Assembly: GCF_007752535.1 (NCBI RefSeq) | Contig: NZ_CP036426.1 | Location: forward strand, 6,820,001 to 6,884,000 | DNA: 64,000 nt | Reading direction: 5' to 3' | Source of the DNA: Tautonia plasticadhaerens | GTDB taxonomy: Bacteria; Planctomycetota; Planctomycetia; Isosphaerales; Isosphaeraceae | Shown here: piece by piece, positions 33,810 through 42,587 of the stretch | Layout of the letters: every line of letters starts with the position of its first letter | Numbering within the stretch: the first letter of the stretch is position 1 | Position numbers and translations under genes: made by a program | Notes under the pieces: model-generated | What the model saw: only the letters and a program-made list of their open reading frames with translations | Database searches by the model: none | Told to the model about the DNA's origin: nothing

Positions 33810-33979
33810 GGACAGATGGGCCTGATCGCCTTCTGCCCGGCTCTTTCGCACGATCTCCGGATTTGAGATCTCGACTTTCAAAACTTGATCACAAGCACGG
33901 GGCCTAGCTTGGCGCCTTCCGACATCCCGGAGTCGTTGCCAGGAGGCGATCGGGGGAGGGATGTGCGGGCCTGCCTTCG

Positions 33980-35747
33980 CCTTTGATCCTGCTGGCGAAT
34001 CCGAGATCGACCAGCGGGTGGGGCTTACGCTACGTCCCAGGGGAATCCCACCCGGACGGAGCCCGCACATGTCGCTTCACCCACGGCCGATCGGATCGGT
34101 GCCCGAGGAGGCCGCCCGCGTCGCGCACGCCGCCTTCCCCGGTGGCAACACCTACATTGCCCTGCGCGATGAGCTGGGCACGATCTTCCGAGACGACGAC
34201 TTCGCCGACCCGTACCCGAGCCGCGGCCGCCCCGCTGAGTCCCCCTGGCGGCTGGCCCTCGTGACCGTCTTCCAGTTCGCCGAGGGGCTGTCCGACCGCC
34301 GCGCCGCCGACGCGGTGCGCGGGCGGATCGACTGGAAGTACGCCCTCGGCCTGGGGCTCGACGACCCCGGCTTCGACGCCTCGGTCCTCTGCGAGTTCCG
34401 GGCGCGGCTCGTCGCCGGCTCGGCCGAGGGGCGGCTGCTCGACGCGCTCCTCGATCTCTGCCGCGGGCGCGGCTGGCTGAAGACCCGCGGCCGCCAGCGC
34501 ACCGACGCGACGCACGTCCTGGCCCGCGTCCGCAACCTCGACCGGCTCGAGTGCGTCGTCGAGACGATGCGCCACGTCCTGAACAGCCTGGCAGCGGCGG
34601 ACCCAGAGTGGCTCCGCCGTCAGGCCCGGGCGGAGTGGGTCGAGCGCTACGGCCGGCGAGCCGAGGAGTCCCGGCTCCCGGACTCCGAGGAGGGCCGCCG
34701 CGCCCTCGCCCGGGAGGTCGGCAAGGACGGCCACGCCCTGCTGGCGGCGGCCTACGACGCCGGCGCCCCGCCCTCGGTCGCGCGATCGCCGGCGGTCGAG
34801 ACGCTGCGCCGGGTCTGGGTCCAGCACTTCCTGGTCGAGGCCGGCGGGCTGCGTTGGCGGGCCGAGGGTGACGGCATCCCGCCCTCCGCCGCGTCGATCA
34901 ACTCGCCTCACGACTCCGAGGCCCGGTACGGCAAGAAGCGGTCGACGATCTGGGTGGGCTACAAGGCCCACCTGACCGAGACGTGCGACGACGAGTCGCC
35001 CCACCTGGTCGTCCAGGTGACGACCGCGCCGGCGCCGGCGGCCGACGGCGATGCCCTGGCCGGGATCTACGAGCAGCTGGGCCGGAAGGATTCGCTGCCG
35101 GGCAAGCACCTAGCGGACACCGGCTACATCGACGCCGAGCTGCTGGTCAGCAGCCGCCGCGACCACGGCGTGGAGCTGATCGGGCCGACGCGGCCGGACT
35201 ACGGCTGGCAGGCCCTGGCCGGCGGCGGCTTCACGGCGTCGGACTTCGCCATCGACTGGGAGGGCAGCCGGGCCACCTGCCCGGAGGGGCGCGTCAGCTC
35301 GGGGTGGACGCCGGCCGTGGAGCGGGACCACACCGAGGTCGTGCACATCAAGTTCTCGAGGAAGGACTGCAAGCCCTGCCCCGCCCGAGAGCGGTGCACG
35401 GGGGCGGCGAGGCGGTCGCTGACGATCCGGGCCCGCGAGCCGTTCGAGGCGCTGAGGGCGGCCCGCGCGCGGGAGGAGACGGAGGAGTACCGGGCCGACT
35501 ACGCCCACCGCGCGGGGATTGAAGGGACGATCTCGCAAGCGGTCCGGGTCGCCGGGCTGCGGCGATCGCGCTACGCGGGTCGGGCGAAGACGCACCTCCA
35601 GCACCTGGCGACGGCGGCCGCGATCGACATCTTGCGCGTCGTCGACTGGCTCGCGGAGGCACCTCGAGAAGCGACCAGGACGTGCGCCTTCGTCCGGCTG
35701 ATCACCGCGGCCGTCCCGGCCTGACATTTCGCCAGCAGGATCGCAGG
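33980..35747 (+). mobile_element. IS1182-family element
   Basis: The inverted ends GATCCTGCTGGCGAA (33985-33999) and TTCGCCAGCAGGATC (35728-35742) are perfect over 15 bases, with CCT/AGG further out. It contains one intact transposase. No clear target duplication was seen. Confidence 0.8.
34069..35724 (+). CDS. IS1182-family transposase
   Basis: The 551-residue transposase has the IS1182 N-terminal domain (IALRDELGTIFRDDDFADPY, then GRPAESPWRLALVTVFQF). The DDE core has Asp in QRTDATHVLARVR, Asp in HLADTGYIDAELL and Glu in AHRAGIEGTISQAVR, with a Cys-rich KDCKPCPARERC insert between the last two. All catalytic residues are present, the frame is intact, and both element ends are visible, so this copy may be active. 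ATG 34069 is the first start after the left terminal repeat that gives the family N-terminus. Confidence 0.9.
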   Translation: MSLHPRPIGSVPEEAARVAHAAFPGGNTYIALRDELGTIFRDDDFADPYPSRGRPAESPWRLALVTVFQFAEGLSDRRAADAVRGRIDWKYALGLGLDDPGFDASVLCEFRARLVAGSAEGRLLDALLDLCRGRGWLKTRGRQRTDATHVLARVRNLDRLECVVETMRHVLNSLAAADPEWLRRQARAEWVERYGRRAEESRLPDSEEGRRALAREVGKDGHALLAAAYDAGAPPSVARSPAVETLRRVWVQHFLVEAGGLRWRAEGDGIPPSAASINSPHDSEARYGKKRSTIWVGYKAHLTETCDDESPHLVVQVTTAPAPAADGDALAGIYEQLGRKDSLPGKHLADTGYIDAELLVSSRRDHGVELIGPTRPDYGWQALAGGGFTASDFAIDWEGSRATCPEGRVSSGWTPAVERDHTEVVHIKFSRKDCKPCPARERCTGAARRSLTIRAREPFEALRAARAREETEEYRADYAHRAGIEGTISQAVRVAGLRRSRYAGRAKTHLQHLATAAAIDILRVVDWLAEAPREATRTCAFVRLITAAVPA

Positions 35748-36067: not shown

Positions 36068-37113
36068 ATGCCGACGAGCATCAGGACGGCCGCGGAGGGC
36101 TACTTCCGGGCCAAGGCCCTCTCGCGGGGGACACGCAACGAGTACCTCACGACCCTCCGGAAGTGGGAGGAGTGGGGCGCCGGCACGCCGATCGAGCAGC
36201 TCCAGCGCAGGGACATCCGCGAGTTCCTCGACCGGGTCCACGAGCAGGCCGTCAGGGATCGGGGGACCAACCCCGGCCGCACGGCCAACAAGGCCCGCGA
36301 GCACCTCCGCGCCATCCTCTCCTGGGCCTGGGAGCAGGAGCTGATCGAGGCGCCCCCGCGGTTCCCCGGCCCCAGGGACCAGCGCGACGTGGCCGGCCGC
36401 CACTACCTGACCAAGGCCGAGATCAACGCCCTCTACTTCGCCACCTACAAGATGGGGCGGCCGCGGGGCTGGGACGCCGCGTACCCGGTCGGCCGGTACT
36501 GGCGTGCCGCCCTGGTCGTGTTCTTCAACTACGGCGTGGACACCGGGACCGTCTGGCGGTCCACGCCGGCCCACGAGCCGATCCTCAGGCGGCACGTCAT
36601 CTGGGACCGGCGATCGCCGGACCGAGAGGCGAAGGAGCAGTCGCCCGGGGATGGCTGTTCTACCGCCGCGTGAAGACCGGCAAGGCGTTCTACCGGCCGA
36701 TGAACCGGGTGTTGCACGCGCACCTGCAGGGCCTGATGCCGAACGACCCGCAGCCCGACGCTCCTATGTTCCTCGGAGGCGGGGCCCGGCCCAACGCCCG
36801 CTTCCAGGCCCTGTGCGAGCATGCCGGCATCAAGCCGAGGCTGGACGTCGAGACCGGCCGGGAGGAGCCCTGGGAGCTGAAGGACCTGAGGAAGACGTGC
36901 GCGACGTACCACGACGAGCACGTGCCGGAGTCGTCGGTGGAGATCCTCGGCCACTCGGTCGGCGGGATCACGTATCGCCACTACGCCCACCGTGCCCCGC
37001 TGGCCTTCCGGGCGATCATGACGCTACCGCAGCCGAGTGCGTTCTCGACCATCCTGAGGGGGAAGGACGGCGAGTGCACGTGCTGCCGGCGGCGGTTCGC
37101 CGACGCCGCCTGA
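36068..37113 (+). pseudogene. Tyrosine recombinase/integrase with one frameshift
   Basis: The first frame encodes the SAM-like N-terminal domain (YFRAKALSRGTRNEYLTTL, IREFLDRVHEQ) and the start of the catalytic domain (VVFFNYGVDTGTVWRSTP). At CCCGGGG (36644-36650) the family sequence moves by -1 into GWLFYRRVKTGKAFYRPMN. It then runs to ELKDLRKTCATYHDEH (HxxR-equivalent region) and LGHSVGGITYRHYAH with the nucleophilic Tyr, and ends with a CTCCRRRF zinc-like motif. One extra C would rejoin the frames as SPRGWLFY. The protein type is common in planctomycetes as a stand-alone integrase. It is either a pseudogene or a single-base sequencing error. Confidence 0.75.
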
Positions 37114-37192: not shown

Positions 37193-37687
37193 TCACTCGG
37201 CCGGGGGCGGCAGGGCGAGGTCTAGCTCCGCGACCAGCAGCTCGACCTCGGCCAAGGCCCAGACCGCGTCGGCCTCGACGCCCGGCAACGCGGCTCGCGC
37301 CCTGAGCGCGGCCTCGCCCGCCGCGTCGTCGTGGCCGAGGCGATGCTCGGCAAGGGCGAGGAACAGCCAGTCCTGGAACACGCCGCCGCCGGGGTCGAAG
37401 CCCATCCCCTCCCGCAGGGCCCCCACCGCCTCCTCCTGTCGGCCGGCCCGATAGAGCAGGGCGCCTCGTGTGTTGAGGAACGCGTGCCGGACCTGCCGGA
37501 TCTGATCCCTGGCCCCGGGGTTCGCCTCCGCCGCCGCCGTCAGGCGGCCCAGGGCGTGGTCGATCCAGGCGAGGGGCGTGGCCCAGTCGTCGGTGGCGCC
37601 CGGGCCGAGGGCGAAGATCATCGCCGCGTTGTTGGCCTCGCCGGCGGAGAGGTCCGGGCCGACCAGCGGGAGCAGCCGCGCGACCCC
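37193..37687 (-). pseudogene. Detached C-terminus of the WD40 Ser/Thr kinase gene
   Basis: The minus strand reads RLLPLVGPDLSAGEANNAAM, then IFALGPGATDDWATPLAWIDH and a TPR-like tail (TRGALLYRAGRQEEAVGALR, LFLALAEHRLGHDDAA), to the stop at 37193. This is the expected end of the kinase gene that starts at 42587. When the 213 bp insertion and one of its 10 bp flanking repeats are removed, CDGVA joins RLLPLVGPDLS in frame. It has no start of its own. Confidence 0.8.
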
Positions 37688-37900
37688 GCAGGGCTACCGC
37701 GCGATAGGTGCAGCGTCCTCCTGCAGGGCCATTTCCCCGGCGATTCCTATCCGGAGCCGCATGAGAGGCACTTCATGCTGATGGACAAGCAGGGCTCCGA
37801 TGTCGCTCACAGGCTTCCGAGTATCGCAAGAAAGACCGGCTGGGTAGGCCATTCAGTCGGAAAGTCTTACGCCATCAGAAGTTCATAGTGCGGTGACCCT
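37688..37900. mobile_element. 213 bp MITE-like insertion in the kinase gene
   Basis: The 10 bp sequence GCGCGACCCC occurs at 37678-37687 and again at 37901-37910, bracketing 213 bp. Its ends GCAGGGCTACCGC and GCGGTGACCCT are imperfect inverted repeats (10 of 12 matching). No transposase fits inside; a short plus-strand frame is open through the element but is not recognised. The size, terminal repeats and target duplication are those of a non-autonomous miniature element. Confidence 0.75.
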
Positions 37901-40900
37901 GCGCGACCCCGTCGCACTCCGACCGGTAGCCGGCGGCGTCGACGGCCTTCAGGCAGGCGAGCCACTGGCGGTAGCGGACCATCGTCGGGAGCCCCGGGCC
38001 GCGGCCGGCGCCGCCGAAGAGGGCCGCGGATCGCCCCCAGTCGCCGGAATCGGCCGCCTGGTCGGCCGCCTGCGCGATGATCCCCGGCTCAGCCCCTCGG
38101 CGGATCGCCTCGTCGAACTCGGCGACCGCCCGCGACGGGCTGGTCCGGCCGGCCCTGAGCACGTATAGGGTCCAGTCCTCCGGGGTCAACGCGATGGCCC
38201 GGTCCGGGTTCCACAGGGCCGCCTCGCCCCGGCCAGCCATCTCTTCGTCCACGGCGGTGACCCGGAGCCAGTCGGACAGGACCTGGGGCGACGGTGCCAG
38301 CCCCCGCACCGCGGCGTAGGCCGCGTCGGCCTCGTCGCGACGGCCGGCGGCCGCGAGGACCCGGCCGCGTCGGGCGGGGATCGTCCAATCGACCGGCCGC
38401 TGGGCGGCCAGGCGGTCGAGGTGCCACTCGGCCCCGAAGGCGTCGCCGTCCTGCTCGGCGTCGTCGGCGGTCGCGTCGTGCCAGTCGGCGTCCGGCCGGG
38501 AAGGGACCAGGGCCGTGCTGCCCTCGCCCACCAGCCTCGCCCGGAGTGACTGCCACTCGTCGGCCGGGACGGTGTCCAGCCCCTGGTTGTCGTCCATCCG
38601 CTGGCCGGTCATCAGGGCGACGCGGTCCGACAGGCGGTCGAGGTCCGGCTCGGCGAACGGGGCGGGCACCGGCCAGCGGCGGACGGTGCCGTCGGCGGCC
38701 ACGCCGACGCACGTCTTGCCGTCGGGGGTGAAGCTTACCGCGAGGATCGGGCCGATGAGCACGGCCGGCGGGCCGATCGGCTTGCGGGCGGCCACGTCCC
38801 AGAGCTGGGCCGACCCGTTCTCGTGGGCGGTCAGCAGGGACGCCCCGTCCGGGCTGAACGCAAGGTCCCGGATCGGGTCGGGATGCGAGAGCCAGCCGGC
38901 GGGGAGCGGGGCGAGCGTGCCGCCGTCGAGCAGGCGGACGCCGAGGTTCGCCGACGCCGCGACCATCCGGCCGTCCGGCGAGAATCGCGTCTTGCCGTCG
39001 CCGTCGAGGGGCCGCTCGCCGAGGAAGTGGCCGGACGGGACCTCCCAGAGGCGCAACACGCCGCCCACGTCGCGCAGGGCCACGGCCCGATCGTCCGATC
39101 GGAATCGGGGCGTCTCTCGGAGGAAGTGGCTCGGGGCGGGATACGGCACCCGGACGGCCACCGACCCGGACGCCACCTCCCAGACCAGGAACTCGGGCGA
39201 CTTGGACCAGTCGGGCGCCTCGACGACGGCCAGGTATCGGCCGTCGGGGCTGAAGGCGACGCCCAGGACGATGTCGTCATGCTGGAGGGGCGGGCGGACC
39301 TCCTTCCCGGCCCGCCAGTCCCAGAACTTGACGAGCCCGTTGGGCCCGTAGTCGCCGGCGGCCAGGGTCTGGCCGCCGGGGCTGAACGCGACCGACGCGA
39401 CGTAGTTGCCGTGGGGCAACGGGGGCCCGGCCGGCCTCCCGGTGGCCGCCTCCCAGACCTGCGCGGTCCCGTCGAAGCTGGCCGAGGCGAAGTGCCGGCC
39501 GTCGGGGGCGAACACGGCTTGCCGGATCAGTGCGGAGTGGTGGATGCTCGTCACTCGGGCCGCCCCGGTCGTCGCGTCCACGAGGCGCAGGTCGTGCGTA
39601 TTCTCGGCCACCTGAGTCCAGTGCTCCGGCAAGTAAGGCCAGAGGATCGCGCCCGCGCCGCTCGGGTCGAACTCGGCGTCGGAATAGGCGGCCGTCCGTC
39701 CCGGTCGCCGTGCCGATTCGGCGGGCGACAGCGCGGGCCGGCTGTGGGGACGAGGGAGCCGCCAGAGTCGCCCGCCCCCCTCACCGATGCCGACCCAGCT
39801 CGCGGCGAACCGCCCGCCCGGGCTCTGTTCCCACCAGGCATTGTCGCTCCGCTGCCAGCCCGGGTGATTGAAGCGGACCCCGGACGGCCGGGGCGGCCAG
39901 GTCCCGGTGTCGTGGAACCGACCATCGACCTGGGAGGTCACGGATCGGCCGTCCGCCGATCGGCCATAGAACATGGAGCGGAAGGGGGTCGGGATGCCGG
40001 GCCCGAGCACCTCGGGCGTCGTCGCCGACCAGCGATGCAGCTGGTCGTCCTTGATCACCAGCGCGGTCCTCATGAGGTTCTCGAAGTGGAAGATCCAGGG
40101 CGCCCCGTCCCCGACCTCGGGCAGTTCCTGATGGACGGGCGGCTCGTCCCCGACCACGGCGAAGCGGATCTGTTCGAACCGCTTCGCGGCACGCTGGACC
40201 CAGAGGATCGCGGAGTTCCCGTCGGGCGACAGGGCCAGGTAGGCGTCGGGCCACCGGTTCGCGGTCTCGCGGTCGGACACGGCATCGACGACGACCCGGC
40301 CGCTCGCCGCCTCCCAGGCGACGACCGCCGCCGTCCGCCACAGGCGGGTCCGGTCCGCGTCCGCAACGCCCCCCCGGTCGTCCGGGCGCAGCCCCCAGAC
40401 CAGCCCGACGAAGTGGCGCCCGTCCGGGGTGACGGCCAGGCGATTGACCGGCCCGGTGGTCGGGATCGGCGGCTGGACGGGGCGGCCCGACACCGGGACT
40501 AGCCGGTGCAGCGTCCATCCATCGACGAAATCCGCCCGGTCCGGCGACGCGACCCACAGGCTCCGACCGTCGGCCGCGAATTCCATCGCCGCGTTATCCC
40601 GGACGAGGAGCTGGATCGGCGGGCCGACCGGTCGGCCGGTGTCGGTCCGGACGCACCAGATCTCGTCCTTCCGGGCGGCCACGGCGAGCCATTCGCCGTC
40701 CGGGGAATAGGCGATCTCCGCCGAATGGAACCTGTCGGGCCAGATCTGCTCCAGGCCCGGCAAGGTCTCGGCCCAGGCGGCCAGGTTGGCCCGGATCGCG
40801 TGCCCGAGCGGGGCCGCTTGCGGGTCGTCCGCCGGGATCGCTTTCAGCGCCCGCACGAACAGGTGCAGCGCCCGGGCCGGCTCGCCGGCGCGGGCGTCCT

Positions 40901-42587
40901 CGATCCCCCGGTCGAGCAGCAGCTCGGCGGCCTGCAAGGCGGCGGCGTTGCGGGCCCACTTCTCCGCCTCCCGGTCCCGGTCGGCGTCGGCGTGCGCGGC
41001 GATCTCCGCCTTCGCCGTGCGGACGGCGTCCTGGCGCGCCGCTCGTTCGGCGTCCGCCGCGAGCCGACGGTCGTCGGCCAGGTCGGCCATGTGGCCGGCG
41101 ACGACCAGCGAGACCGCCGTCGAGAGGACGAGCACGGCGGTCAGGACCGCGCCCAGCACCGCGATCCCCGGGTGGTGCCGCGCCCATCGGGCGTAGCGAT
41201 CGGCCGCCGACGCGCGTCGGGCCTGGATCGGATCGTCGTCGAGGAACCGCCGCAGGTCCTCGGCCATCGCGTCGGCCGAAGAGTACCGCCGCTCCGGGGC
41301 CTTTTCGATCGCCTTCAGGACGATCGTCTCCAGGTCGCGGGGAATCCGGCCATCGAGCGATCGGGGCCGGTCCGGCTCCTCATTCTTGATTTGCTCGATC
41401 AGCCTCAGGCGGTCCGCAGACGCGTAGGCCGGCCGGAGCGTCAGCAACTCGTAGAGGGTCAAGCCCAGCGCGGAGATGTCGGCGCGGGCGTCCCCCTCGC
41501 CCCGGAACCGCTCCGGGGCCAAGTAGCGGAGCGTGCCGAGGAGGTCTCCCGTGGCGGTCAGGCCGTCGTCCTCGTCCCTGGCCAGGCCGAAGTCGGCGAT
41601 CCAGACGACCCCCTGCGTGTCCAGCAGCAGGTTCGAGGGCTTGATGTCGCGATGGACGATGCCGCCGGCGTGGGCATGGGCCAACCCGTGCGCCGCCTGG
41701 CGGCCGATCCGCGCCACGCTCCGGAAGAACGGCTGGCGGCGGCCGGAAGTGTCGACCTCCGAGACCTGAGTCCCGCCGGGCAGCACCGCCGAGTTTGACA
41801 CGCCCGGGGCCAGCGGGGCCGGTGGCCGGTCCCCGATCGTGACCGTCGGCGTGAGTCCCGAAGGCGTGATCGAGTCGAGCGGCTCGGTCCCGGTTAGGAC
41901 GGTGGGCGATCCCAGCCCTTCGTTCGGGGGCCGACCGCCCAGGAGCGATACCGCCACGCCCCCGGACGTGCGCTCCAGCGGACCCGCCGTCGCGGGCGCC
42001 TCGGTCCCCGAGGGTCCGGGTCCGCCCGATTCGTAATCGGGAGCACGAAGCCGCACCAGCTCGTCGATGACCTGGTCGAGTCCCTGCCCCCGGATCAGTT
42101 GCATGGCGTAGAAGGCGAAGTCGCCCTCCCGGCCCACCTCGAAGACGGGCACGATGTTGGTGTGGTGCAGCCGCGCCGCGGCCTTGGCCTCGCGGCGGAA
42201 CCGCTCCAGCGCCCTGGGGTCGTGCGCGACCCGGTGGGGCAGGACCTTCAGCGCCACCCGGCGGCCCAGGCTGACCTGCTCGGCCTCGTAGACGACCCCC
42301 ATGCCGCCTCGGCCGATCTCCCCGAGGATCCAGTAGTCGCCCAGTCGCCACGCCCGACCCTCGATCACACCCCGGGCGGCCGGTGCCGCATCGTGGACGT
42401 CGACGTCGACCGAGAGATCCTGCTCGACGCGCACCAGGGCCGGCAACAGCCTGCGGATCGGCCCGGCCAGCTCGGGGTGACGGGCGGCCAGGTCCTCGAT
42501 GCTCGGCCGCTCGCCGGCGCGATACCGTGCCAGGAACGACGCGGCGACGACCTCAAACGGATCGCGATCGGACGTCTCGTCGCTCAA
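37875..42587 (-). CDS. Ser/Thr protein kinase with WD40 repeats, C-terminus cut by an insertion
   Basis: The TTG at 42587 overlaps the sigma-factor stop codon (TTGA), so the two are translationally coupled. The first 85 residues contain a short N-terminal segment (FLARYRAGERPSIEDLAARH). The kinase domain spans about residues 86-460 with IGRGGMGVVYE, VALK (Lys114), HRDIKPSNLLL (312-322), ADFGLA (331-336) and APERFRG. A low-complexity Pro/Gly/Thr insert of about 110 residues lies between the two lobes. One membrane segment is near 500. The rest is WD40-type repeats (FSPDGRYLAV, FAPDGRHFASASFDGTAQVW) and a TPR-like end. Translation ends in the insertion with GHRTMNF; the true C-terminus is at 37193-37687. 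Kinase residues are intact, so a shortened protein may still work. Confidence 0.85.
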   Translation of the reverse strand: MSDETSDRDPFEVVAASFLARYRAGERPSIEDLAARHPELAGPIRRLLPALVRVEQDLSVDVDVHDAAPAARGVIEGRAWRLGDYWILGEIGRGGMGVVYEAEQVSLGRRVALKVLPHRVAHDPRALERFRREAKAAARLHHTNIVPVFEVGREGDFAFYAMQLIRGQGLDQVIDELVRLRAPDYESGGPGPSGTEAPATAGPLERTSGGVAVSLLGGRPPNEGLGSPTVLTGTEPLDSITPSGLTPTVTIGDRPPAPLAPGVSNSAVLPGGTQVSEVDTSGRRQPFFRSVARIGRQAAHGLAHAHAGGIVHRDIKPSNLLLDTQGVVWIADFGLARDEDDGLTATGDLLGTLRYLAPERFRGEGDARADISALGLTLYELLTLRPAYASADRLRLIEQIKNEEPDRPRSLDGRIPRDLETIVLKAIEKAPERRYSSADAMAEDLRRFLDDDPIQARRASAADRYARWARHHPGIAVLGAVLTAVLVLSTAVSLVVAGHMADLADDRRLAADAERAARQDAVRTAKAEIAAHADADRDREAEKWARNAAALQAAELLLDRGIEDARAGEPARALHLFVRALKAIPADDPQAAPLGHAIRANLAAWAETLPGLEQIWPDRFHSAEIAYSPDGEWLAVAARKDEIWCVRTDTGRPVGPPIQLLVRDNAAMEFAADGRSLWVASPDRADFVDGWTLHRLVPVSGRPVQPPIPTTGPVNRLAVTPDGRHFVGLVWGLRPDDRGGVADADRTRLWRTAAVVAWEAASGRVVVDAVSDRETANRWPDAYLALSPDGNSAILWVQRAAKRFEQIRFAVVGDEPPVHQELPEVGDGAPWIFHFENLMRTALVIKDDQLHRWSATTPEVLGPGIPTPFRSMFYGRSADGRSVTSQVDGRFHDTGTWPPRPSGVRFNHPGWQRSDNAWWEQSPGGRFAASWVGIGEGGGRLWRLPRPHSRPALSPAESARRPGRTAAYSDAEFDPSGAGAILWPYLPEHWTQVAENTHDLRLVDATTGAARVTSIHHSALIRQAVFAPDGRHFASASFDGTAQVWEAATGRPAGPPLPHGNYVASVAFSPGGQTLAAGDYGPNGLVKFWDWRAGKEVRPPLQHDDIVLGVAFSPDGRYLAVVEAPDWSKSPEFLVWEVASGSVAVRVPYPAPSHFLRETPRFRSDDRAVALRDVGGVLRLWEVPSGHFLGERPLDGDGKTRFSPDGRMVAASANLGVRLLDGGTLAPLPAGWLSHPDPIRDLAFSPDGASLLTAHENGSAQLWDVAARKPIGPPAVLIGPILAVSFTPDGKTCVGVAADGTVRRWPVPAPFAEPDLDRLSDRVALMTGQRMDDNQGLDTVPADEWQSLRARLVGEGSTALVPSRPDADWHDATADDAEQDGDAFGAEWHLDRLAAQRPVDWTIPARRGRVLAAAGRRDEADAAYAAVRGLAPSPQVLSDWLRVTAVDEEMAGRGEAALWNPDRAIALTPEDWTLYVLRAGRTSPSRAVAEFDEAIRRGAEPGIIAQAADQAADSGDWGRSAALFGGAGRGPGLPTMVRYRQWLACLKAVDAAGYRSECDGVAQGHRTMNF

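Follow-up and report, generated by a model that had tools for sequence, protein, structure and literature searches.

A 213-bp transposase-less element with ISAs1-family ends in a Ser/Thr-kinase/WD40 gene of Tautonia plasticadhaerens

In the 9.4-Mb genome of Tautonia plasticadhaerens, a Ser/Thr-kinase/WD40 gene is interrupted by 213 bp of DNA that carries no transposase. This raises the question of what the inserted DNA is, what could have moved it, and what its arrival did to the gene. The window analyzed here is the 64,000-nucleotide stretch G000:C1:6820001-6884000, and the features of the locus are collected in Table 1.

The insertion and its host gene

The 213-bp length of the insert, its inverted ends, and the restoration of the reading frame upon its removal are all present in the sequence, and the original prediction is supported in that a small element without a transposase, bearing inverted ends and flanked by a 10-bp duplication, has inserted precisely. 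CAGGG is present at both ends of the insert (CAGGG...CCCTG). Read inward, CAGGGCTACCGC and CAGGGTCACCGC are identical at 10 of 12 positions, which bears out the imperfect 12-bp inverted ends first described, and at 13 of 18 over a longer stretch. The 10-bp duplication is present and perfect, but its earlier reading as GCGCGACCCC was one base off. The duplicated stretch is GCGCGACCCCG, with 11 identical bases; if the element, as in its relatives, has the termini CAGGG/CCCTG, one of the 11 is its own, and the preferred reading of the duplication is CGCGACCCCG (10/10 identical).

Together with one copy of the duplication, the element amounts to 223 bp, which is not a multiple of 3. With both removed, the minus-strand frame from 42587 encodes 1723 residues and stops at 37193-37195. 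With the insert present, the predicted protein consists of 1562 native residues and 8 that the element encodes, and then a stop. This truncation, which can be read in the frames of the gene as predicted, costs the protein 161 C-terminal residues of 1723. The Pfam matches to Pkinase and WD40 both lie inside the retained part, and for this reason “splitting,” the word originally used for the event, is too strong: the interruption is real, but only the C-terminal 161 residues are severed. No Pfam family was found at E 0.001 in the last 260 residues of the protein, which include the severed ones. Any effect of the insert on the kinase we would infer from the sequence only.

A direct repeat around imperfect inverted ends can also be a coincidence in G+C-rich DNA. 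When we scanned for a 10-bp direct repeat flanking inverted ends of at least 10/12, 60-400 bp apart, one place in the window was found, and 4 of 200 dinucleotide shuffles of the window gave at least one. By itself, the pattern of repeat and inverted ends protects only modestly against chance, and the shuffle test, which considers only this pattern, is less strict than the two observations that settle the insertion: an uninterrupted homologue and the ISAs1 ends. In G006, a genome of the same family but of another genus, the gene is uninterrupted across the junction, exactly at the insert site, with 187 of 260 residues identical and no gaps; the DNA across the junction is 83% identical over 233 bp, also ungapped. 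Searched with the end of the kinase gene, 44 other genomes of the family gave G006 as the sole match at E 1e-20 or better. Three same-genus genomes gave no match at E 1e-20, and a comparison from another genus is a point against the reading proposed below. In addition, 47 bp at one end of the insert and 25 bp at the other match ISAs1 ends. Coincidence is hardly credible against this evidence and is ruled out by the homologue in G006; the insertion is confirmed. It shows a route by which a kinase/WD40 gene lost its 3′ end.

Table 1. Features of the interrupted locus, in window positions
Feature	Position	Strand	Remarks
Non-autonomous ISAs1-ended element, 213 bp	37689..37901	-	Ends, duplication, length, uninterrupted homologue
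Target duplication, copy 1, CGCGACCCCG	37679..37688
Target duplication, copy 2, CGCGACCCCG	37902..37911
Terminal inverted repeat, CAGGGCTACCGC	37689..37700	+
Terminal inverted repeat, CAGGGTCACCGC	37890..37901	-
ISAs1-like end, 25 bp	37689..37713	+	92% to outer end of an ISAs1 transposase remnant (by eye) in a relative, G035 (L022)
Interior, about 141 bp	37714..37854		G+C 60% (window: 70%); no remnant of a transposase found
ISAs1-like end, 47 bp	37855..37901	-	83% to left end of the 1213-bp ISAs1 element (L002); similar end in a relative (L021)
Truncated Ser/Thr-kinase/WD40 gene, 1570 aa	37875..42587	-	Final 8 residues and stop come from the element
Severed 3′ end of the kinase gene, 161 codons and stop	37193..37678	-

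Assignment to the ISAs1 family

The element had been called a member of an unknown family, which proved wrong. In its ends and in the length of its duplication it conforms to the ISAs1 family, and the same genome contains an ISAs1 element whose ends match and whose transposase frame is open. ISAs1 elements are described as having 14-22-bp inverted repeats that start with CAGGG and a 10-bp duplication (PMC11946415). A search of the genome for ISAs1-family transposases gave 16 matches, of which 13 exceed the curated cut-off. At G000:C1:6420536-6421748 lies a full-length element of 1213 bp (L002/L013) with an open transposase frame of 386 aa; the protein matches NF033564 (E 1.3e-95) as well as PF13808 and PF01609. 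A candidate for the autonomous relative with the same ends, which the original prediction had proposed to look for, is found in the insert's own genome. The same 47 bp of the insert that resemble its left end also match a second copy of this element (L003; E 2.3e-6), in which the right end is altered and no duplication was found. CAGGGCTACCGC has four exact occurrences in the genome: one in the insert and three at ISAs1 ends of the L002-type element. Because the terminus that resembles the ISAs1 left end sits at 37901, the insert is assigned to the minus strand. In its CAGGG ends, its duplication of about 10 bp, and the 47 bp of one end, the insert is like the 1213-bp insertion sequence; it is unlike it in its 213-bp length, its lack of a transposase, and its unrelated middle.

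Among 12 distinct ISAs1 places examined in the genome, eight have a perfect 10-bp duplication, one (the 1213-bp copy L002) has a duplication at 9/10, and the three without are those lacking a qualifying end pair (L003, L005, and L014). This count omits the fragment loci L016 to L019, takes L012/L013 as the same elements as L003/L002, and keeps the best-scoring CAGGG/CCCTG end pair per locus; since the script selected by score, the end pairs of L004 (ends 10/18) and L015 were helped by the duplication itself. A full-length relative of 1214 bp in L028, titled Fimbriiglobus, has a perfect 10-bp duplication. A complete ISAs1 element of a second type (L008; 1288 bp, G000:C1:6885772-6887059), also with a perfect 10-bp duplication, lies about 1.8 kb past the right end of the window.

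An orphan mini-element is now assigned to a transposase family, with a likely helper element named in the same genome, and this makes the mobility of the insert testable.

Probable mobilization in trans and its alternatives

Very probably, the insert is a MITE-type, non-autonomous transposable element that carries ends of the ISAs1 family and that an ISAs1 transposase moved in trans. This enzyme, a DDE transposase encoded by a full-length ISAs1-family element (the 1213-bp copy of this genome, for example), would recognize the CAGGG...CCCTG ends and mobilize the 213-bp unit, which would be joined to a staggered cut and thereby gain its 10-bp duplication. Landing in the 3′ part of the Ser/Thr-kinase/WD40 gene would bring in a stop after 8 codons, with the last 161 of 1723 residues lost and the domains left in place. 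Judging by the ends and the duplication, both ends were most likely acted on by an ISAs1-type transposase produced from another locus of the genome; mobilization in trans we infer from the same two features, and any one ISAs1 copy is a putative source of the enzyme. The middle of the element would derive from another source, and not from any of the ISAs1 elements seen here by simple deletion.

The insert was predicted to be MITE-like, and it is short and transposase-less, with terminal inverted repeats and a target duplication. However, MITEs are expected in several copies, and the genome holds one. No second copy was found in the insert's own genome, in 98 relatives, or in a sample of 396 other genomes of the class (best 2 candidates per genome scored), and the “MITE” label is a loose one. 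Among the 98 relatives, G023, G035, and G040 gave partial matches to one end only, which were not counted as copies, and no copies were found in plasmids. Consequently, movement of the exact 213-bp unit is seen once. A lack of both further copies and a matching transposase had been named as evidence against the original prediction; no other copies were found, but a matching transposase exists.

A single copy is also what would be expected if a full-length ISAs1 element had inserted and then lost or exchanged its middle in place, never moving as a 213-bp unit, a history that excludes mobilization in trans. The 47 bp of ISAs1 left end kept at one end, and the imperfect inverted ends, are consistent with such decay. 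The two ends of the insert match each other at 13 of 18 positions, compared with 16 of 18 in the full 1213-bp element, and one of them follows the right end of that element for 12 bases and then diverges; like the single copy and the lack of a transposase remnant, this counts against mobilization in trans. However, after a plain deletion ISAs1 sequence would be expected to flank a single breakpoint on either side, and the middle of about 141 bp matches none of the fetched ISAs1 loci. Open frames of at least 60 aa, of all kinds, from seven of these loci gave only short matches to the element and its flanks. Two matches below 1e-3 were examined as a possible transposase remnant; both were to the stretch that includes the flanks and were read as a shared IS end or flanking DNA. 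The claim that the insert lacks a transposase agrees with these results, as neither the ISAs1 frames nor Pfam revealed a remnant in the 213 bp, and because the middle holds none, descent from ISAs1 is judged solely from the ends. Small elements with such ends and duplications also occur elsewhere (see below), which argues against decay in place. We regard that history as quite improbable, while a deletion in a more distant ISAs1 relative, beyond the loci seen here, could also have given rise to the insert.

Compatible with mobilization in trans is a further reading, in which the element took up foreign DNA between its two ISAs1 ends, perhaps part of a gene, and carried it along when it moved. 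The middle bears no relation to the ISAs1 sequences seen, its G+C content is 0.60 compared with 0.74 in the kinase gene, and one of its plus-strand frames is open, with a G+C content by codon position of 0.59/0.50/0.69, highest at the third. However, this frame had no convincing homologue in 44 other family genomes, where a match in G034 (E 0.005, 33% identity) was dropped as chance, and none in 293 other genomes of the phylum; in viral contigs, 16 pattern stretches were found and 0 confirmed. A 52-aa frame on the minus strand of the interior is likewise open, without a match in 293 other genomes, and neither frame belongs to a Pfam family. Uptake of foreign DNA is thus an unlikely source of the middle, although somewhat less so than decay in place. 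Structured RNA was considered and rejected, with no Rfam family up to E 1, a fold z of -1.53, and 12 of 200 shuffles equally stable. No sigma-70-like promoter or terminator carried in by the insert was found.

Miniature relatives and known systems

The 20-bp end pattern of the insert occurs in 12 stretches of genome contigs, titled Fimbriiglobus (9), Gemmataceae (2), and Planctomycetota (1), and in 1 stretch of viral contigs; two-ended patterns gave 4 and 4 stretches in viral contigs. One IMG/VR contig carries a 133-bp miniature element (L039:973-1105) with ISAs1 ends and a 10-bp duplication, identical to the insert at 20 of 20 end bases at one end. This contig also carries, by eye, an RHS-repeat-like gene and may for that reason be bacterial rather than viral. 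In G228, a genome of the same class, a 134-bp miniature element (L040) has a 12-bp duplication and shares 15 of its first 17 end bases with the insert. It was the only one returned by a two-ended search for short units that covered 397 genomes, the insert's own among them, and no further copy of it was found among the best 2 candidates scored in each of the 397. The two elements are 73% identical to each other and leave no room for a transposase. They are like the insert in their near-identical termini, their duplications, and their small size, and unlike it in being shorter and in having middles unrelated to that of the insert. A 113-bp element at L044:1032-1144, found also in L045, has CAGGGCAACCGCATC ends, related to those of the insert, and a 9-bp duplication. 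Two Porphyromonas gingivalis phage records contain DNA identical to the L044 stretch, and none of the DNA around this element was found in plasmids. Five other candidates (L046 to L050) were dropped as miniature elements for want of a duplication.

It is doubtful, although worth stating, that Planctomycetes hold scattered, low-copy miniature elements with ISAs1 ends whose middles have been swapped for unrelated DNA, the ends serving as a frame for capture and movement. If this is true, the cargo of the insert would be one without a known source.

Transposase-less elements that share their ends with a resident insertion sequence are already well known. For example, MITEPye1 of Paracoccus yeei is non-autonomous, has 1-3 chromosomal copies, and is thought to have been moved in trans. 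Like the insert, it is low-copy, with direct repeats and the ends of a full-length IS family, but those ends are of the IS1182 family and not of ISAs1 (PMC11578231). BrickBuilt, MITE239, and MITEPgRS of Porphyromonas gingivalis are MITEs with IS5 ends. They resemble the insert in lacking a transposase and sharing ends with full-length insertion sequences of the same genome, and differ in their IS5-family ends and many copies; BrickBuilt copies are said to lack a transposase remnant, as the insert does (PMC4596501). In Anabaena sp. 90, type I MITEs are those thought to be moved by an insertion sequence with the same ends (PMC3542288); the insert is of the same kind, but single-copy and with ISAs1 ends. 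No MITE with ISAs1 ends was met in the literature searched, which included the available portions of PMC9208149, PMC3281130, PMC5756416, PMC5771137, PMC3606827, and PMC4133298. The mechanism of insertion is an ordinary one, and the event is real and fairly ordinary.

Other mobile-element genes lie near the insertion. An IS1182-family transposase gene (window 33961-35724, plus strand; NF033551, E 8e-99) is about 2 kb away. Between them is an integrase-like gene (36068-37113, plus strand), whose N-terminal part matches Phage_int_SAM_1 (E 3.7e-07) and whose second part matches no Pfam family; by eye, the remainder of the gene seems to run on in a different frame, which suggests a frameshift. In one frame, the ISAs1 end encodes QG(Y/H)RTM followed by a few further residues and a stop, both in the insert (37875-37901) and in L023, where a frame that appears by eye to be oxidoreductase-like ends in QGYRTMKG. 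Consequently, ISAs1 insertions can give the genes that they interrupt a short shared tail.
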